From a virus: 23,045 nt of DNA. Of the stretch, positions 2,806 to 12,073 are shown piece after piece. The notes beneath the pieces were generated by a model that was not told the DNA's origin, searched no databases, and saw only the letters and a list, made by a program, of their open reading frames with translations. Every line of letters begins with the position of its first letter. The stretch's first letter is position 1. A program made the translations under genes and the position numbers. The stretch lies in IMG/VR virus record IMGVR_UViG_3300045999_002117, positions 1-23,045 of that record, one strand, 5' to 3'.

Positions 2806-3861
2806 TTATAGCTGATACCAACCTTGGTCATATTGATTTAATAGCCTTGTGAAGTATTTATCGTATTTATATCTAATTATATCCATTGAGTATTTTGAGT
2901 ATGCATCTGTGGCTATTGCTCTATAGTCTAATGTCCTTACCTGTTCCGCCGCCTTAATAAACTCAGCAAAAGAGTTGCAGCGATATCCATTAAAGCCATT
3001 CTTTACTGTCTCAGTAAATATGCCCAAATCCGTAGTCAGGACAGGCGTTCCAACTGCTAGAGCCTCAAGGTGTGAGTTGCATCCTGGTTCAAGGTATAGG
3101 GTGGGACTGAAGGCTCCTATGGCACCTCCTAGAAGGGCTGCTCTGTCTTCTGCTTTAACTTCTCCAATATAAGTTCCGTAGGCTGGTCTGTAATCTCCAC
3201 TGCCTCCAAGAATTAACTCAACACCAAGATACTCACATACTTGAGATGCAATATCAATTCCTTTGCGCTTTGTTAAACGACCTAAGTAGACATAATAGTC
3301 TTTTTTGTCCAACTGCATTGAAAACATCTTAGGATCAAAGTAAGGATTAATTACTTGGTCCATGAAATTAATATCTACAGATGCTGCATTCTTCCATTGC
3401 GAATAAACGGCTGATCTCCATGTGTTGCTTTCAAATACCTTGTAATTGCTAAATACTCCAGAGTAGCCGATTCCATACTCTACCGCAATGTTTTCTGGGA
3501 ATGCATCTGCTACTGGCTTTTGGGCTAGGCCTCCAATAATACAGATAAAGTCTTTTGGTTGTATTCTTTTGCTTATTTCTTTAATTGCATTACCGTTAAA
3601 AGTTGTCCAATGAGGTAATGTGTTATCAAATGAGGTACTTGTAAAGTGGTTGTTTCCAACTGCTTCAGCCCTTTGTTCTTCAGAGATACAAGTAATCAAT
3701 TCTGTTGGATCACATGTAGTTTCTTCTCCAGCATAAAGAAATACTTCGTGACCAAGAGAACGCATTTGGCGAACAAAGCCGTGAGTCTTATAGGAATATG
3801 CACAGCTAAAGTACTTTTCCGTAATTTGAGTATGGGGAAGTGCTAGAACATGAAATCTCAT
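2806..3861 (-). CDS. GT4-type glycosyltransferase (GT-B fold)
   Basis: A 351-residue glycosyltransferase. The N-terminal half begins with a first strand and glycine turn typical of GT-B enzymes (RFHVLALPH, with the acceptor-side helix GFVRQMRSLGHEVFLYAG). The C-terminal half starts at about 188 (YYVYLGRLTKRKGID) and contains the E(x7)E donor-binding motif at E258-E266, followed by GTPVLTTDLG. These are hallmarks of family GT4, which transfers a sugar from a nucleotide sugar. The substrate is unknown; phage-coded GT4 enzymes modify host surface glycans, virion proteins or hypermodified DNA. The ATG overlaps the previous stop (ATGA at 3861), so translation is coupled. Its place in the early block, away from the other modification genes, leaves DNA glycosylation possible. 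Confidence 0.8.
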   Translation of the reverse strand: MRFHVLALPHTQITEKYFSCAYSYKTHGFVRQMRSLGHEVFLYAGEETTCDPTELITCISEEQRAEAVGNNHFTSTSFDNTLPHWTTFNGNAIKEISKRIQPKDFICIIGGLAQKPVADAFPENIAVEYGIGYSGVFSNYKVFESNTWRSAVYSQWKNAASVDINFMDQVINPYFDPKMFSMQLDKKDYYVYLGRLTKRKGIDIASQVCEYLGVELILGGSGDYRPAYGTYIGEVKAEDRAALLGGAIGAFSPTLYLEPGCNSHLEALAVGTPVLTTDLGIFTETVKNGFNGYRCNSFAEFIKAAEQVRTLDYRAIATDAYSKYSMDIIRYKYDKYFTRLLNQYDQGWYQL

Positions 3862-3992
3862 GCCTTATCGCACTCACAATTAGCAGACATGTCAGCAATT
3901 ATCTGATCTAGCTTACTAATTGCTACCTGCAATGAGTTAATAATCTCTTGATTTGTTACTATCATTTCTCCTCTAGCTTCATTCATGTACAT
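3858..3992 (-). CDS. Small coiled-coil-like protein, 44 residues
   Basis: A short protein with a heptad-like helix (IINSLQVAISKLDQIIADM) and an acidic cysteine tail. The frame is open up to an ATG at 4052, but that codon has no ribosome site. The ATG at 3992 has a perfect AAGGAG (4004-3999) at 6 nt and is chosen as start. Initiation at 4052, 2 nt after the upstream stop, by re-initiation would give 64 residues and cannot be excluded. Function unknown. Confidence 0.5.
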   Translation of the reverse strand: MYMNEARGEMIVTNQEIINSLQVAISKLDQIIADMSANCECDKA

Positions 3993-4054
3993 ATTTCGCT
4001 CCTTGTTGTAGTGTTTATCATTCATATATCTATGAAAGTATCTTCTTGGCATTT

Positions 4055-4312
4055 CTATTTCTTTTTCTTATAAGTAATAATTACTGGAGATTTGTTTACA
4101 TCTGTTCTTTTGTTTCTTAGATCATTCATATTCATTTCGCTCCATGCTGGCAATGACTGTCCTTTATTTCTTTTTAAATATCTGTCAATATAGGTATCAA
4201 GGTACTGATCTACTAACTCCATAATTTCTTCATCTGTCATAGTCATCAGTTTACTAACTGGATGTTGCTTATAGAATCTAGACTGTAATCCGCATTCTTT
4301 TATTTCACTCAT
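4055..4312 (-). CDS. Hypothetical 85-residue basic protein
   Basis: Not recognised. A mostly helical protein (DEEIMELVDQYLDTYIDRYLKR) with a lysine-rich end (TYKKKK). An ATG at 4318 lies too close to the AGGAG site; the ATG at 4312 is 7 nt from it and overlaps the TGA of the upstream gene in an ATGA arrangement, so it is preferred. Tight coupling to the replication-type gene at 4309-4917 suggests a partner role in replication or its control, which is inference. Confidence 0.55.
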   Translation of the reverse strand: MSEIKECGLQSRFYKQHPVSKLMTMTDEEIMELVDQYLDTYIDRYLKRNKGQSLPAWSEMNMNDLRNKRTDVNKSPVIITYKKKK

Positions 4313-4917
4313 CGCCATTCTCCTGCCAATAATTCTTTCTGTTCCGCCGTCAAATTTTGCGGCGACGGGGCTATTGCTTTAACCTCAGCCAAAGATGGAT
4401 TGTCACTGATGGTGTCTTCCCATATTAATCCTTCTTGGATTTCTTTTATTTTAGACTTTACCAATAATTCCTTTTCAAAGGAATTATTAATCTTTTTATC
4501 TGTTATCTTATCTGTTAAGTTATCTGTTCTTTTACCTGTTAAGTTATCTGTTAGTTCTTCATTTTGAGACATTGAACCTCTCATATTGAGACTACCTAGT
4601 CTCATATTGAGACTACCTGGTATCACAGTGAGACTACCCATGTCTCTTTCTGAGACTGGAGGTATATGAACTGTATAGGTATTAGACTTGTTAAATCGTC
4701 TATTTGATACAAGGTATCCTTGTTCTATTAGTCTTAATTTAGCTCTATGGATTGTTGCTTTACTTAATCCGCTTTCCTTTGCAAGTGTAGCTATGCTTGG
4801 AAATGCCGCTTCTCCTGATGGCCATTTAACATGTGATCCAATTACTACAAAAAGCCATTTGCAGGTACTATCTAAATCTGAGGCCATCACTGCCCTTTGA
4901 AAATCAAACTGTTTCAT
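4309..4917 (-). CDS. Winged-helix replication-initiator-like protein
   Basis: A 202-residue protein. The N-terminal domain (about 1-85) is a winged helix: an initial helix 'MASDLDSTCKWLFVVIGSHV', then FPSIATLAKESGLSKATIHRAKLRL as helix-turn-helix, and a wing ending in NTYTVHIPP. Phage replication initiators of the lambda O and 'helix-turn-helix 36' kinds start this way. The middle (92-141) is repetitive at protein and DNA level (GSLNMRLGSLNMRG; LTDNLT..RTDNLTDKITDKK). The C-terminus is acidic and may contact a host helicase loader. The repeats and a palindrome inside the coding sequence look like an origin embedded in its own initiator gene. No normal ribosome site is present; GGGTA lies 3 nt before the ATG. 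A transcription-regulator role is the alternative. Confidence 0.65.
   Translation of the reverse strand: MKQFDFQRAVMASDLDSTCKWLFVVIGSHVKWPSGEAAFPSIATLAKESGLSKATIHRAKLRLIEQGYLVSNRRFNKSNTYTVHIPPVSERDMGSLTVIPGSLNMRLGSLNMRGSMSQNEELTDNLTGKRTDNLTDKITDKKINNSFEKELLVKSKIKEIQEGLIWEDTISDNPSLAEVKAIAPSPQNLTAEQKELLAGEWR
4463..4488. repeat. 26-bp palindrome inside the replication gene
   Basis: AATAATTCCTTT (4463-4474) and AAAGGAATTATT (4477-4488) are perfect 12-bp inverted arms with a 2-nt centre. It lies immediately downstream, in the coding direction, of the two tandem repeat groups. A protein-binding or origin element is likely; a chance palindrome of this length is improbable. Confidence 0.6.
4496..4555. 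repeat. Five 12-bp AT-rich tandem repeats (TTATCTGTTA + 2)
   Basis: Plus-strand copies start at 4496, 4508, 4520, 4532 and 4544, exactly 12 bp apart; three are TTATCTGTTA, one ends C and one reads TTACCTGTTA. They code for the TDNLT-like repeats. Their AT-richness and position beside the iterons fit a DNA-unwinding element. The stretch 4521-4533 matches 12 of 13 positions of the E. coli oriC 13-mer consensus as I remember it. Confidence 0.6.
4580..4641. repeat. Iteron-like 21-bp tandem repeats
   Basis: Two nearly identical 21-bp units (4580-4600 and 4601-4621) and a third diverged unit (4622-4641), each containing TGAGACTACC. Further TGAGAC hexamers flank them (4565-4570 and near 4651). Directly repeated initiator binding sites inside the initiator gene are the arrangement of phage lambda ori within gene O. 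Confidence 0.6.
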
Positions 4918-4964
4918 ATTTACCCATTCTTTAATAATTCTAGCAAAATCAATGCCAGTGCTCT

Positions 4965-4993
4965 ATAGTATCATATTGATATTTATAAAGCAA
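4965..4993 (-). promoter_or_regulatory. Extended -10 promoter for the replication block
   Basis: TTGCTT (4993-4988), 17 bp, then TACTAT (4970-4965) on the minus strand, with TG one base before the -10 box (TGATACTAT, extended -10). Predicted start near 4958, about 41 nt before the ATG at 4917. The -35 box directly follows the terminator of the small RNA gene. Confidence 0.65.
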
Positions 4994-5084
4994 GAAAAAG
5001 GACTCCAACAGGAACGGGTAGCAACCATTGGAGTCCTTCTGTCTATCGCACCAGAAAGGGAGCATATAATGCTATTGCGATAGA
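4992..5084 (-). ncRNA. Candidate phage small RNA of about 93 nt, two hairpins
   Basis: The unit is bounded by a consensus promoter (5118-5090, predicted start 5084-5083) and an intrinsic terminator. Hairpin 1 has 9-bp arms TCTATCGCA (5042-5050) and TGCGATAGA (5076-5084), enclosing an inner AGCAT/ATGCT stem (5061-5073). Its unpaired part reads CUCCCUUUCUGG, a C-rich anti-Shine-Dalgarno-like stretch. Hairpin 2 has 11-bp arms (4998-5008 and 5028-5038) and a 19-nt loop containing UUGCUACCCGUU, followed by a U run. There is no useful open frame. The loop of hairpin 2 is complementary to leaders of at least three early genes in the window. Alternatives: a plain terminator for the lysis operon, or an attenuator leader of the replication gene. 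Confidence 0.6.
4993..5038 (-). terminator. Intrinsic terminator between lysis and replication regions
   Basis: An 11-bp perfect stem AAGGACTCCAA/TTGGAGTCCTT with a 19-nt loop, followed on the minus strand by a T-rich run (CCTTTTTCTT). It ends the small RNA and probably also read-through from the lysis genes. The plus strand lacks a matching T run. Confidence 0.8.
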
Positions 5085-5089
5085 ATCCT

Positions 5090-5118
5090 ATTCTATAATA
5101 ACTATAACCTTATGTCAA
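5090..5118 (-). promoter_or_regulatory. Consensus promoter of the small RNA
   Basis: TTGACA (5118-5113), 17 bp, TAGAAT (5095-5090) on the minus strand. The predicted start falls at 5084-5083, precisely the first base of the outer stem of hairpin 1, so transcript and structure boundaries agree. Confidence 0.75.
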
Positions 5119-5135
5119 GATTAGATAATGTAAGC

Positions 5136-5237
5136 TTAGTACATCTTTACTTTTACTAGATTGCCTTCTTTATCATAGCTCCATGCTTCAATAGCCTTTG
5201 ACTCTAGATCTTCAATTAGTTTATTTAGTTCTTCCAT
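5136..5237 (-). CDS. Small acidic helical protein, 33 residues
   Basis: Starts at the ATG 1 nt after the transglycosylase stop (TAG G ATG), so it is translationally coupled. An N-terminal helix with heptad pattern (MEELNKLIEDLESKAIEAW) is followed by a short strand pair (YDKEGNLVKVKMY). A longer frame upstream would run inside the transglycosylase gene and lacks a ribosome site. Last gene of the lysis region; function unknown. Confidence 0.45.
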   Translation of the reverse strand: MEELNKLIEDLESKAIEAWSYDKEGNLVKVKMY

Positions 5238-5238
5238 C

Positions 5239-5702
5239 CTAGTACCAGCCTTTCTTCTGAAAATGTTTCCAGGCTCCACATGGAGTGGAATGCCTTCTTG
5301 AGATATAAGACAGCGTAGCAACCAATTGGGCTACTGCACTATCTGACTTCTTCATGCCAAGACTGCTTACTGTGCTGTCTAGCATCTGGCCTATGCCTGA
5401 AGCCGTGCTTGTTGGGTTTTGAGCCTCTGGCTTCCAGGCTGACTCTTTCCCTATTAATTTGGTTAAACATATAAATTGCTTGGGATCAAGCAATTCCTTT
5501 GCTATTTCTCTTGCAGATACCTGCTCTAACAATGGCCTTGGCTCATATATTATTGTTGGTTCTGATCCTGCTTTATCTGTTGTAATTCCTGCTTGAATAA
5601 AAATTGCTAACAAAGTTGCTATTAAAGCCCTTTGCCATAGCTTGTTGTTTTTTGTAATAATAAATCTCCTTTAGTAGTTGAATTGCCCCAACTATTTTTC
5701 AT
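5239..5702 (-). CDS. Lytic transglycosylase (SLT-like), likely made by frameshift
   Basis: The conserved domain (frame 5239-5658) shows the family signature: catalytic glutamate in GKESAW, then NPTSTASGIGQML, and the end SYISRRHSTPCGAWKHFQKKGWY. It cleaves peptidoglycan glycan strands, so it serves in lysis or entry. Upstream in the same frame lies KNNKLWQRALIATLLAIFIQAG, a signal peptide or membrane anchor, but no ATG or GTG. A short frame with an excellent AGGAGG site starts at 5702 (MKNSWGNSTTKGDLLLQK) and is one base out of phase. A -1 slip on the A6 run at 5653-5648 joins the two. Alternatives: an ATT start at 5658, 7 nt from AAAGGAG; a TTG at 5613 lacking a ribosome site; or one A missing from the run by sequencing error. 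Confidence 0.75.
5648..5653 (-). other. A6 run, putative -1 slip site in the transglycosylase gene
   Basis: On the minus strand the run reads CAAAAAAC in the reading TTA CAA AAA ACA. A one-base backward slip, or one extra A, fuses the well-started short frame (5702-5622, 26 codons) to the transglycosylase frame. Without it the short frame ends at TAA 5624-5622. Confidence 0.45.
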
Positions 5703-5748
5703 AGATTTATCCTCCTTTGGTTATTTATTGCTCATATAGTTTATCATA

Positions 5749-6042
5749 CTAGAGTCCATCTCGTATATTGATACTCCAGCATATCTTGCAATAGTCATTA
5801 CGACCATCAACATTCTTGATCTTTTTACCAAAATCTTTTATATCTTTCTTCTTGTTACACTTAATACAGACTTTGCTATCTCTTTGAATATGGTGCCTTA
5901 TGACTTCCGTCCGTTTTTTGTTAAAATAATAATGACTGGCACATGGCCTGCAATAGGATCCATATCCATCGCCATACTTCCTATTAGATTTACTAAAATC
6001 TTCGTAGGGCTTCTTAATGTTACAAATTGCACAATATTTCAT
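5749..6042 (-). CDS. Double zinc-ribbon protein, endonuclease VII-like N-domain
   Basis: A 97-residue protein made of two copies of one ribbon: CAIC ... YCRPC (first half) and CIKC ... YCKIC (second half), each with the K-x(4)-DF and Y-C-x-x-C spacing. The same module forms residues 9-38 of the endonuclease VII at 1871-2542, but the catalytic DHDH domain is absent here. It may bind DNA or RNA, or be a nuclease remnant. The ATG at 6042 has AGGA 4 nt upstream, and the promoter at 6069-6097 gives a leader of only about 20 nt. Confidence 0.65.
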   Translation of the reverse strand: MKYCAICNIKKPYEDFSKSNRKYGDGYGSYCRPCASHYYFNKKRTEVIRHHIQRDSKVCIKCNKKKDIKDFGKKIKNVDGRNDYCKICWSINIRDGL

Positions 6043-6214
6043 AATGTCCTAAATGTCCGTTTTGTACCATTGTACTTGAAGACTTCTACTTTTGCAATCT
6101 ATGACTGGCTCTACAATGCCTCAAACAGGGGTCTGTGGGCTCCATAGAGGCCCTTTCAGAGCTTCCTAGGGTAAAAGTATGGGTATGCACTTTCCAAAGG
6201 CTCCTAGAACGCTC
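6043..6214. other. 172-bp spacer with promoter and GC-richer repeats
   Basis: Between the genes at 5749-6042 and 6215-6484. It contains the promoter at 6069-6097, an imperfect hairpin GGGCTCCATAGAGGCCC, two GCTCCTA copies just after the 6215 stop, and GGGTATGC at 6181-6188. A minus-strand mini-frame (6145-6086, MEPTDPCLRHCRASHRLQK) has AAAGGG 5 nt before its ATG, but I cannot support it as a gene. Confidence 0.4.
6069..6097 (-). promoter_or_regulatory. Sigma-70-type promoter for the double zinc-ribbon gene
   Basis: TTGCAA (6097-6092), 17 bp, TACAAT (6074-6069) on the minus strand. Predicted start near 6062, 20 nt before the ATG at 6042. It probably also drives the transglycosylase downstream. 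Confidence 0.6.
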
Positions 6215-6484
6215 CTAAGCGTAAACTATTTTGAAATTCCACCTTGGGTCAGCATCGTCTCTTCTTTTATAAATAACGGCTCCATGATCATTAACTAATT
6301 TAATTAGATTAGCCTCTTCAGGAGTTATGCAGCGCCTGTCTTTACCAAAGGTTCCAACACGATGCTTATCCCCAGCCTCAGTTGTTGCAAAATTAATGTA
6401 GCAGCCAGAACAAACTTCTACTGACTGAGCAACTATCTCTCCTGTATGTGTATTTCTAAAATGCTTTCCTGGTAATGTATTCAT
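6215..6484 (-). CDS. Hypothetical 89-residue protein, leaderless
   Basis: Not recognised. A protein with a CSGC pair and strand-rich start (FRNTHTGEIVAQSVEVCSGCYINF), then KHRVGTFGKDRRCITPEEANLIKLV. The ATG is 7 nt after the last base of the TACAAT -10 box, so the predicted transcript begins at the start codon and there is no room for a ribosome site. Such leaderless messages are read efficiently in Actinobacteria. The gene stands alone, with a terminator upstream and another promoter downstream. Confidence 0.6.
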   Translation of the reverse strand: MNTLPGKHFRNTHTGEIVAQSVEVCSGCYINFATTEAGDKHRVGTFGKDRRCITPEEANLIKLVNDHGAVIYKRRDDADPRWNFKIVYA

Positions 6485-6490
6485 AAATCT

Positions 6491-6520
6491 ATTGTAAGCT
6501 ATTTAGGAAGATCTTGTCAA
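6491..6520 (-). promoter_or_regulatory. Consensus promoter giving a leaderless transcript
   Basis: TTGACA (6520-6515), 18 bp, TACAAT (6496-6491) on the minus strand; six bases then separate the -10 box from ATG 6484. It starts right after the terminator at 6525-6554. Confidence 0.75.
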
Positions 6521-6524
6521 GAAT

Positions 6525-6554
6525 AGGAAAAAGACCTCAGAACTTAATCTGAGG
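6525..6554 (-). terminator. Intrinsic terminator behind the holin-like genes
   Basis: CCTCAGA (6535-6541), a 6-nt loop, TCTGAGG (6548-6554), with TCTTTTTCC following on the minus strand. It ends the transcript that carries the two holin-like genes. Confidence 0.85.
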
Positions 6555-6627
6555 CCCTTCCTTGTAGATAAATGAACAGACAAATATTGGTGGTTCTGTA
6601 TTAAATCTACATAGCCCTATTCTACTC

Positions 6628-6855
6628 TTATTTCTTTGTTACGCCAAATTCTTTCTCATTAGGCTGTAGTGCCTTTACGAGAGGACCAACGAGCCCTGCC
6701 ACAAATGCGTTTGCTAGAACCTTTGGATCTGTAATTCCAGCCATGTACATAGCAAGTACGGCTGCTGCAGATGCTCTAAGATAAGAGGCTGCTGCTGCTA
6801 GTGCTTGATCTTTGACTGTCTTTTCTTTTAAGTATGCTACTTTTTTTGTTGCCAT
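6628..6855 (-). CDS. Holin-like small membrane protein
   Basis: A 75-residue protein with a basic start (MATKKVAYLKEK), an alanine-rich hydrophobic stretch of about 45 residues that could form one or two membrane helices (AAAASYLRASAAAVLAMY and VLANAFVAGLVGPLVKAL), and a polar charged end. Size, layout and the neighbouring transglycosylase fit a holin that opens the cell membrane for lysis. The start has AAAGGAG at 7 nt. A terminator follows 70 nt after the stop. The name rests on context and topology only. Confidence 0.55.
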   Translation of the reverse strand: MATKKVAYLKEKTVKDQALAAAASYLRASAAAVLAMYMAGITDPKVLANAFVAGLVGPLVKALQPNEKEFGVTKK

Positions 6856-6856
6856 T

Positions 6857-7090
6857 TTATTTCTCCTTTGGTGGTGCTTTTCTTTTAGGTTTTACACCTT
6901 CCGTCATTAAGATTAAGACTATTTGTTCAACCTGTGTCTCTAATCTATCAACGGAATCTCTGAGTGATGTGCCTCCATTTTTATGCAGTTCAGATAGATA
7001 GTGCTTGACTAGCCATCTAATTGATCCTACATAGGCAGTTACTATTGTTGTTACTGCTACTGCTAAGCCTGCCCATTCTACTGGTGTCAC
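6857..7090 (-). CDS. Membrane protein with coiled coil, second holin-like protein
   Basis: A 77-residue protein starting with GTG at 7090 (AGAGG 7 nt upstream, GTGA overlap with the preceding stop). Residues 3-30 form one membrane helix (EWAGLAVAVTTIVTAYVGSIRWLV), followed by a coiled-coil region (LRDSVDRLETQVEQIVLIL) and a basic tail (KPKRKAPPKEK). Single-helix proteins with a cytoplasmic coiled coil beside a holin are often lysis partners in actinobacteriophages. It precedes the other holin-like gene by 1 nt. Confidence 0.55.
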   Translation of the reverse strand: MTPVEWAGLAVAVTTIVTAYVGSIRWLVKHYLSELHKNGGTSLRDSVDRLETQVEQIVLILMTEGVKPKRKAPPKEK

Positions 7091-7791
7091 TCACTTACCT
7101 CTGATTCCCAGAGATGTTTCTCTGCTTGATATTTTTCTTCAAAGTTTAGAACACCACGATAGTCACAGCATTTACAGATTGGTCTGTTATTGCTGTAGTC
7201 TGGTTGTGACCAGTATCCCATCTTGGCTCTAAATTTAAAATCTGATTTCCATGAGTTGTTAGCATGTCCGTCTGGCGTGAAAGCCCAATGATCAGGCTCT
7301 GCAAATTGCATAAATAGTAAATGCACAAACTTGTCTTCATCTTCTGACGGAAACTCTGGTCTCCAGTGCATTGAGTCGTTGCCACAAAAGACAATACAGT
7401 CATTAGGTTGCTCATCATATAGAACATCATCTACTGCTAATTGCCAGTCAACATTTTTATCAATGCAAATGTCTAGAGAATACTGACATGCTGATTGATC
7501 ATAATGCTTCCATAGCTGTGGCTTAATACCATTTTGCTTTTGATATCTTCCAGTGTGGAATCCTGCTCTACGAATAGTGTCAGATCCAAATGTCTTCTTT
7601 GCTAGTTCTAAGAGTTCTGCTTCTGTCTCTGCATCAAAGTGTACTTCTTCTAGCCATCTGCCTGCAACTGTGTGATAGAAATGTGGTCCTTCTGGCCCCA
7701 AGTTCATAGCAAGTAGTTGCTGCTTAATTTTTTCAAACAGCTCAGCTGGTAGGAAGTTCTTGACTGATCTTGTATTTACTTCAGTTTTCAT
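7087..7791 (-). CDS. 2OG-Fe(II) oxygenase-like protein (first paralogue)
   Basis: A 234-residue protein with the double-stranded beta-helix iron site of 2-oxoglutarate-dependent dioxygenases: HYD at 96-98 and a distal H142 in MHWRP. It shares a long pattern with the protein at 10324-10914 (HYD..AC.Y..D.C, then W.L.V, F.G....HWR, EP.HW.F), so the two are paralogues. Phage enzymes of this kind may hydroxylate proteins, sugars or nucleobases; the substrate is unknown. The C-terminus holds CKCCDY, a possible extra metal site. AAAGGAG precedes the start, whose upstream region is shared with the divergent gene at 7828. Confidence 0.7.
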   Translation of the reverse strand: MKTEVNTRSVKNFLPAELFEKIKQQLLAMNLGPEGPHFYHTVAGRWLEEVHFDAETEAELLELAKKTFGSDTIRRAGFHTGRYQKQNGIKPQLWKHYDQSACQYSLDICIDKNVDWQLAVDDVLYDEQPNDCIVFCGNDSMHWRPEFPSEDEDKFVHLLFMQFAEPDHWAFTPDGHANNSWKSDFKFRAKMGYWSQPDYSNNRPICKCCDYRGVLNFEEKYQAEKHLWESEVSE

Positions 7792-7811
7792 GGTGCTCCT
7801 TTGTAAGTATT

Positions 7812-7826
7812 TGCTATACTAGTATA
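7812..7826. promoter_or_regulatory. Extended -10 with 12-bp palindrome, divergent promoter region
   Basis: Plus strand: TGCTATACT (7812-7820), an extended -10 box, ends 7 nt before the ATG at 7828. TATACTAGTATA (7815-7826) is a perfect palindrome, so a TATACT box also faces the minus-strand gene at 7791. No good -35 is visible on either strand. It may be a symmetrical bidirectional promoter or an operator. Confidence 0.6.
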
Positions 7827-7827
7827 C

Positions 7828-8505
7828 ATGTATAGCCAATTTTATTTCTTGCATCTAAATAAGACAATTAATACCTCTGTTGATCTTAATATTATGCATG
7901 GGCTTTATAGGGTTATGGACAGGCACGGCATAGATACTGCTCTTAATTTAAAGCATAACGACCATAATATGTGGCGTAATTTTGAAGATACGACCTATAT
8001 TTTTTCAGTTATTAGAAATCCAGTTGATAGGACTTTAGCTGATTTTACCTATTCTCACATCTTTGACGATTTTCATATAAGAAAAATTTCACCAAATGGA
8101 GTTCATGTTGATGATAATCTTATGCCCTCAATAGATGAATTTGAGAAATGGCTTCATACGATTCATACCCCAAACTATCAATCAAGGGCTCTTCACAATG
8201 GGCTGATGAATATATCACCTGAATTAATTTCAAACAGGGTAAAAAGAATTAATCTGTTGGTCAGAGATAATGCCTTTAATCAAGACAGCAAGCAAAAGCT
8301 ACTTGCCAATAAGATTTTATCTGATCTTAGAATTGAAGAAACTATAAAAACTCCATGGGTTCCAGAGCATTTGTTTGCACAAAGACACGCTGGAGCATTT
8401 TATTACAATAAAATTATTGGAACTTCTTTAGAGGAAGAGATAAAGAAACTTAATTGGTCTGATGTTGATTTATATGATAATGATTCTAACTTTCATCATT
8501 TATAG
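7828..8505 (+). CDS. Sulfotransferase-like protein, the only plus-strand gene
   Basis: A 225-residue protein resembling the Sulfotransfer_2 (carbohydrate sulfotransferase) group. FYFLHLNKTINTS at residues 5-17 corresponds to the 5'-phosphosulfate loop (F-x-H-x-x-K-T). VIRNPVDRTLADF at 61-73 corresponds to the 3'-phosphate motif (R-N/D-P-x-x-R-x-x-S), with the usual serine replaced by alanine. Such enzymes move sulfate from PAPS to sugars or proteins. The phosphosulfate loop begins at residue 5, so the start at 7828 is firm, yet no ribosome site exists and the -10 box ends 7 nt upstream: a leaderless message. The 3' end overlaps the convergent glycosyltransferase gene by 20 bp. Opposite orientation and own promoter suggest a moron acquired separately. 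Confidence 0.6.
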   Translation: MYSQFYFLHLNKTINTSVDLNIMHGLYRVMDRHGIDTALNLKHNDHNMWRNFEDTTYIFSVIRNPVDRTLADFTYSHIFDDFHIRKISPNGVHVDDNLMPSIDEFEKWLHTIHTPNYQSRALHNGLMNISPELISNRVKRINLLVRDNAFNQDSKQKLLANKILSDLRIEETIKTPWVPEHLFAQRHAGAFYYNKIIGTSLEEEIKKLNWSDVDLYDNDSNFHHL

Positions 8506-11536: not shown

Positions 11537-12073
11537 TTATGCACATGGTCCACAACCTGACGCTGGGGTTGTTCCTGGTCCATAACATAAACCAACTCCT
11601 GCACCATCACAAATAGCGTTTGCATTAGCAGAGGCTTCAGCAAAAGTAGCAAATGCATAACTATCGCAACCTTGTACGCAAGAGCAACATGCCCAGTAAT
11701 AAGTTGTTAATGGACTTACTGGTGGTGTAACTGGAGGTGTGACAGGAGGTACTACGGGTGGAGTTACTGGAGGAGTTACTGGTGGCACCACAGGTGGAGT
11801 TACTGGTGGTGGAGTTACTGGTGGTGTCACAGGTGGTGTGACAGGTGGAGTAACTGGTGGTGTCACAGGTGGAGGAGTTACTGGTGGTGTCACTGGAGGA
11901 ACTACTGGAGGTGTGACAGGAGGTACTACGGGTGGAGTTACTGGAGGAGTTACTGGTGGCACCACAGGTGGTGTTACAGGTGGAGTCACAGGAGGTGTAA
12001 CAGGTGGAGGTGTTGGTGCAATGTATCTTAATGTTACACCTATACCACTTGGGTTACGAAATAATGGACTCAC
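11537..12073 (-). CDS. Virion appendage protein with PPV(T/V) repeats
   Basis: A 178-residue protein starting with GTG (AAAGGAG 4 nt upstream). Residues about 20-120 are an uninterrupted proline-rich repeat of TPPV, VPPV and PPPV units, which should form a stiff polyproline-II rod. The last 60 residues are a compact cysteine-rich domain with eight cysteines (WACCSCVQGC ... GCGPC) and FATFAEASANANA, resembling small secreted or surface domains. Position after the tail-tip genes suggests a tail fibre or adhesin whose knob binds the host, but the family is not one I recognise. The repeat DNA contains a 68-bp perfect duplication. Confidence 0.55.
   Translation of the reverse strand: MSPLFRNPSGIGVTLRYIAPTPPPVTPPVTPPVTPPVVPPVTPPVTPPVVPPVTPPVVPPVTPPVTPPPVTPPVTPPVTPPVTPPVTPPPVTPPVVPPVTPPVTPPVVPPVTPPVTPPVSPLTTYYWACCSCVQGCDSYAFATFAEASANANAICDGAGVGLCYGPGTTPASGCGPCA
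11730..11971. repeat. 68-bp perfect direct repeat in the PPV gene
   Basis: Bases 11730-11797 and 11904-11971 are identical over 68 bp, offset 174 bp, which is exactly 58 codons. The surrounding GGT/GGA/ACT-rich units are shorter, diverged repeats. The perfect copy points to recent in-frame duplication or gene conversion; length variation between relatives is expected. Confidence 0.85.

Follow-up and report, generated by a model that had tools for sequence, protein, structure and literature searches.

Organization of the locus

The window, that is, the whole stretch of 23,045 nucleotides analysed here (IMG/VR record IMGVR_UViG_3300045999_002117), carries a short intergenic module on its minus strand, located between a lysis gene (5239-5613) and a gene for replication initiation (4309-4917). 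The features of this module and its upstream neighbour are as follows.

5613-5239, minus: lytic transglycosylase (lysis) gene, upstream neighbour of the small RNA (sRNA) and query used to find relatives
5118-5090, minus: sRNA promoter, with -35 TTGACA (5118-5113), a 17-bp spacer and -10 TAGAAT (5095-5090)
5084-4995, minus: predicted small RNA of about 90 nt, probably starting at 5084 or slightly (a few bases) upstream and ending in the U run 4999-4995
5084-5042, minus: hairpin 1, with a 9-bp outer stem (5084-5076 with 5050-5042) and the C-rich loop CUCCCUUUCU at 5062-5053
5038-4998, minus: hairpin 2, an intrinsic terminator with the 11-bp stem AAGGACUCCAA/UUGGAGUCCUU (5038-5028 with 5008-4998)
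5024-5010, minus: loop 2, UUGCUACCCGUUCCU, the putative targeting loop; in the predicted fold its final C and U form weak pairs
4993-4965, minus: second promoter P2 (TTGCTT-17-TACTAT), directly 3' of the terminator, predicted to drive the early genes and with counterparts in the relatives

A preliminary description had pointed to a small RNA gene, equipped with a promoter and a terminator, at this position between lysis and replication genes, and it was correct throughout, in all checkable details. The consensus promoter that it reported (TTGACA, 17 bp, TAGAAT) matches sigma-70 at 11 of 12 positions and is one of the two best matches found in a promoter scan of positions 3000-8000, and the 9-bp outer stem, the C-rich stretch within a nested hairpin and the 11-bp terminator hairpin, this one terminating in UUUUU, were all located. 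Hairpin 2 was omitted by a terminator scan because its loop is longer than the 8-nt limit of that scan. The sRNA segment has a minimum free energy of -37.6 kcal/mol vs -18.6 ± 3.0 kcal/mol for its shuffled versions (z = -6.4), with none of 200 shuffles equally stable. As also described, no long open frame was found in the segment; the short ATG frames vary among the copies of the relatives (MLITSK, MLSPPSNS and MSSPP, each ending at a stop codon), and thus a peptide encoded within the sRNA was rejected and the RNA is regarded as non-coding.

Conservation of the module among related phages

A protein search with the transglycosylase recovered 35 IMG/VR contigs, and alignment of the transglycosylase yielded 80 loci. 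In about 40 related phage contigs of IMG/VR, the sRNA module follows the transglycosylase gene, most loci sharing the same layout: a TTGACA-N17/18-TAYAAT promoter, hairpin 1 with CACCUCC or CCUCC, a terminator hairpin whose loop is rich in C, and a second promoter for the early genes. TTGACA was present in 26 of 27 modules, and TANNNT in all 27. The covariance search that the preliminary description had proposed also succeeded: a model built from 16 relatives, with the window excluded, gave a single match in the window, at 5089-4993 (20.2 bits, E-value 0.0029).

The conserved or compensated stems that had been named as a further check were found too, the hairpin plan being kept while the stem sequences differ. 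The last pair of the common 6-bp outer stem of hairpin 1 is G-C in the relatives, A-U in G017 and C-G in the window, and the terminator stems, compared singly, are wholly different in sequence between types with pairing retained. RNAalifold on a MAFFT alignment recovered hairpin 1 only, because the hairpin-2 sequences are too divergent to be aligned. The loop of hairpin 1 contains CACCUCC or CCUCC in the relatives; the window copy, CUCCCUUUCU, has CUCCC and lacks CCUCC, and is therefore a divergent relative rather than a typical member of the family.

This conservation bears on the simplest reading of the locus, in which a terminator of the lysis transcript stands beside a promoter and the loop sequence is incidental, without any regulatory RNA. 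A terminator is indeed expected between lysis and early genes, and P2 follows directly after it. However, we consider this reading improbable, as it leaves unexplained the promoter located 5' of the hairpins, the conserved hairpin 1 and the co-variation of loop and targets described below.

No Rfam family scored above threshold in the relatives or in the window, where the 6C model (even at a relaxed E-value) and the c4 model gave no match. The hit to ctRNA_p42d (19.9 bits vs a gathering score of 50) was discarded as a chance match of the terminator hairpin. Neither the initiator protein nor an exact 20-mer of the RNA retrieved any relatives, and the window DNA had no match among cultured phages. 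A simple search did not find the module in the distant transglycosylase relatives L227 and L229-L255. In the more distant loci L204, L217-L221, L224, and L228, the sRNA carries an extra 5' hairpin, mostly with the loop UUGCCAU; the complement of AUGGC is included in this loop, and pairing with the regions of start codons is conceivable.

Complementarity of loop 2 to ribosome binding sites

The preliminary description proposed no function for the RNA. In addition to what it reported, loop 2 was found to be complementary to the ribosome binding sites (RBSs) of early genes. In the window, the sites and the genes that they precede are the following.

4929-4921, minus: target site (i), GAAUGGGUA, RBS of the replication initiator gene; 9 bp with loop 2
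4917-4309, minus: target gene (i), replication initiation protein, O-like / HTH_36, 202 aa
2731-2721, minus: target site (ii), AGGAAUGGGUA, preceding the CxxC gene; 11 bp with loop 2
2715-2530, minus: target gene (ii), CxxC protein of 61 aa, zinc-ribbon-like by eye; start taken at the second ATG, as in relatives
1753-1742, minus: target site (iii), AACGGGUAGCAA; 12 bp with loop 2, all Watson-Crick
1738-1466, minus: target gene (iii), small protein of 90 aa with a hydrophobic N-terminus (membrane protein by eye)

At gene (iii), the part of loop 2 complementary to AACGGGUAGCAA is UUGCUACCCGUU. Considering the window alone, the energy of the top three RBSs had p = 0.0005 vs shuffled loops. The sRNA and its three targets all lie on the minus strand at separate places, with sites up to about 3.2 kb away, so the RNA is not transcribed opposite its targets in the manner of cis-encoded antisense RNAs of the OOP type. 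The position of the RNA on the same strand as the early operon and immediately 5' of it would also suit a leader or attenuator, in which the early operon mRNA would begin with this RNA and read-through into the replication genes would be governed by it in cis. Against this, a separate promoter, P2, follows the terminator both in the window and in the relatives, and attenuation in cis needs no complementary sites at three genes as far as about 3.2 kb off, which makes such a leader quite unlikely.

The same complementarity was enriched across the phage group. When the own loop 2 of each phage was compared with 642 RBS windows from 23 contigs, 27 contiguous helices of ≤ -16 kcal/mol were counted, vs 6.6 ± 2.6 for shuffled loops (maximum 12 in 50 shuffles) and 10.8 for loops swapped between phages at the same threshold. 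In a search of whole contigs, 25 of the 96 sites ranked among the top four per contig fell in RBSs, which make up 3.6% of the sequence; shuffled loops placed 8.8 ± 2.9 there (maximum 15 in 100 shuffles), and the antisense strand none. Duplex energies that tolerate bulges, computed over all RBSs, did not separate own from shuffled loops (226 vs 220.6), the discriminating measures being contiguous helices, loops swapped between phages, and orthologous targets. No significant match of loop 2 was obtained for 371 late-gene RBSs (p = 0.28) or for control gene families, among them the glycosyltransferase gene (p = 0.99). One further gene family, with proteins starting MGG, gave p = 0.03 and may represent a fourth target. 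The gene starts used in these analyses came from a simple script.

Loop 1 was also considered as the main targeting loop, and it was rejected for lack of specific enrichment among phage RBSs. The conservation of CACCUCC, the core of the 16S anti-Shine-Dalgarno, in hairpin 1 of most relatives, the distant ones included, suggests another role for it, namely a general interference with translation in which CCUCC or CUCCC would imitate the 16S rRNA 3' end and sequester strong Shine-Dalgarno (SD) sequences, mainly those of the host. The partners of loop 1 among phage RBSs were, however, not enriched at the stringent threshold (12 at ≤ -14 vs 10.9 expected), the window copy is devoid of CCUCC, and the covariation of loop 2 would be left without explanation; as the principal function of the RNA, such interference thus appears very improbable. 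The C-rich loop of hairpin 1 may nevertheless add some general anti-SD pairing to the action of loop 2.

Joint variation of loop 2 and its target sites

The same three orthologous positions were matched in different phages, with site and loop varying jointly. In group A, loop UUGCUCCC corresponds to sites GGGAGCAA; in group C, loop UCCCAUUCU to AGAAUGGGA; in group D, loop UUCCCAGUUU to ACUGGGA-type sites at gene (iii); and in group H, loop UCUCAUUCUC to GAGAAUGAGA. Permutation of loop types at the level of groups gave p = 0.0002 for target (i), 0.00015 for target (ii) and 0.008 for target (iii), and none of 20,000 permutations was as good for the three combined. As the phages are related, the units permuted were loop types and not single sequences.

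For gene (ii), the analysis was carried out with 20 loop types and 28 targets, yielding z = -5.7/-6.6, with no label permutation out of 20,000 as good. The pattern had first been noticed in the contigs used for the first test, so that the loci added later provide a cleaner, out-of-sample test, although they belong to the same phage group as the first set and some of their loops are related; these newly fetched phages alone gave p = 0.0018/0.0003 at gene (ii). Among them, the loop UCUCAAUUUCC of L217 pairs with GGAAAUUGAGA, and the loop UCUCAUUUCUC of L206 with GAGAAAUGAGA, in both cases before gene (ii).

The correspondence has exceptions. Two contigs of group B (G011 and G015) show just 5 bp at gene (ii), where group D also misfits; the site is absent from gene (iii) of G001, G002, G005, G019, and G026; and no significant match was found in the new loci L204, L211, L218, L221, and L224. 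In three further cases (G023, L201, and L212), the complementarity at gene (ii) is to loop 1 (CUCCUAAGU with ACUUAGGAG, including one G-U pair in L201) instead of loop 2. To our knowledge, covariation in trans between the loop of an sRNA and its mRNA targets has seldom been seen. It is this loop-target covariation, and not the evidence from the stems, that indicates the function.

Proposed function

The reading that we favour, with a probability of a little over three-quarters, is that the module encodes a trans-acting antisense sRNA of the phage, whose loop 2 would pair with the RBSs of three or more early genes of the same phage, most likely blocking their translation. At the sequence level, it is supported by the conservation of the gene layout, by the structure, and by a complementarity that has co-evolved with the targets. 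The RNA has what is generally expected of this class: promoter and terminator bound a short structured RNA, which exposes an RBS-complementary seed with covariation. That the gene is transcribed, that pairing occurs in the cell, and that the outcome is repression rather than activation is what we infer from these data.

According to this proposal, the housekeeping-type promoter and the intrinsic terminator would produce a free-standing sRNA, and the loop of its terminator hairpin, 13-19 nt long, would base-pair in trans with the RBSs of the first gene of the early operon (the replication initiator in the window), the CxxC protein and the small membrane protein. The pairing would cover the Shine-Dalgarno and translation of these early genes would be blocked. 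Because the promoter resembles a strong host promoter and each copy of the phage genome would give rise to more RNA, a brake on the early genes linked to copy number is plausible, with a negative feedback growing as phage copies accumulate.

Pairing per se is silent on direction, and the same RNA with the same pairing might instead activate the early genes or stabilise their mRNAs. Nevertheless, the sites lie over the SD region just 5' of the start codon, and pairing over this region normally blocks initiation; repression is thus the natural reading, and activation seems quite unlikely.

It is also conceivable, though we regard it as doubtful, that the loop types constitute a code of compatibility or superinfection immunity among lytic phages, in which the RNA of the first phage would repress the early genes of a co-infecting relative of the same type, escape requiring a joint change of loop and targets. 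If true, this would explain the coexistence of about 20 loop variants, and also why hairpin-2 types are combined with differing types of hairpin 1, as in G012 and G016.

Comparison with known regulatory RNAs

Most phage sRNAs that have been studied in depth belong to temperate phages whose hosts possess Hfq, and a single phage target is frequent among them. In the c4 antisense RNA of P1 and P7, sequences placed in loops pair with the RBS regions of phage mRNA and block translation, and loop specificity varies between phages and underlies heteroimmunity (PMC12197685). The proposed RNA resembles c4 in opposing a loop to the RBS of phage genes with a specificity that varies among phages, the pairing here being deduced from sequence alone. 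In contrast to c4, which controls ant in temperate phages, it is an independent gene, having a promoter and a terminator of its own and sites at three distant early genes, has no Rfam c4 match, and comes from contigs in which no integrase was seen.

The mycobacterial 6C / B11 sRNA has two C-rich hairpin loops capable of binding several mRNAs at G-rich 5' UTR/SD sites (PMC10470900, which also refers to Mai et al. 2019 for binding independent of chaperones). C-rich loops directed at several mRNAs in an actinobacterial setting are common to both, whereas the RNA described here is encoded by a phage, has phage early genes as putative targets, has a loop tuned in each phage and does not match the Rfam 6C model.

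P22 sar and lambda OOP are short phage antisense RNAs that lower the expression of a phage regulator (PMC12197685). They act on single targets (ant and cII, respectively), OOP being encoded opposite its own, whereas the RNA of the window matches several non-overlapping genes on the same strand. VpdS of VP882 and PreS of lambda are trans-acting phage sRNAs active in infection (PMC12197685); they differ in being Hfq-dependent and from Gram-negative hosts, and PreS acts on the host dnaN. Finally, intergenic ncRNAs of unknown function are strongly transcribed in infection by the actinophages WC1, D29, and Kampy (PMC10986025), which the present RNA resembles, by description, as an intergenic ncRNA of actinophages.

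The module thus represents a putative family of multi-target sRNAs directed at the phage's own genes in uncultivated actinophages, which would work most like c4 and 6C/B11 yet matches neither Rfam family, and which seems to act on several early genes simultaneously. Compensatory changes between the loop of an sRNA and its mRNA targets are recorded naturally in this family, so that the interaction lends itself to direct testing. The family also hints at what the strongly expressed ncRNAs of cultured actinophages may do.

Phage group and other features of the contigs

The capsid and transglycosylase proteins have their nearest counterparts, at about 38% identity, in Mycobacterium and Streptomyces phages, so the group was assigned to the actinobacteriophages. 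It is an abundant, uncultivated freshwater group, with 323 capsid relatives in IMG/VR. No tyrosine or serine integrase was found in 14 contigs, all of them possibly fragments, and a host search in genome contigs through the transglycosylase and the capsid gave no match. In contigs G000-G027, the non-canonical RBS AAGGGG/AGGGGC, beside AAGGAG, was about 300-fold enriched over the coding background.

Between P2 and the first early gene, a conserved leader of about 190 nt (ACTTCAGAGCGTTTAGAGATCACATCAATGTTGGTTCTGAAGGGACTACGGGCAG...) was present in L010 (4690-4960), G007, G009, G010, G012, G017, G019, G021, G023, and G027; it looks structured and has no Rfam match. A different leader (CACTGCGAAGTTTTACGGTACCTCTCCAGTG...) occupies the same place in G003, G008, G013, G014, G016, and G018, and the window has no leader.

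Elsewhere on the minus strand of the window, a second TTGACA-18-TACAAT promoter (6520-6491) was located 3' of a terminator (6561-6528), at such a short distance from the ATG at 6484 that the mRNA of the zinc-binding-like gene 6215-6484 would be leaderless. Beside the tail genes, positions 11537-12073 of the same strand encode a protein with proline-threonine-valine repeats (PPVTPPVTPP...), with a long frame also on the opposite strand. Finally, the only sizeable gene on the plus strand (7828-8505, 225 aa) sits among proteins that by eye are radical-SAM-like, glycosyltransferase-like, and hydroxylase-like.
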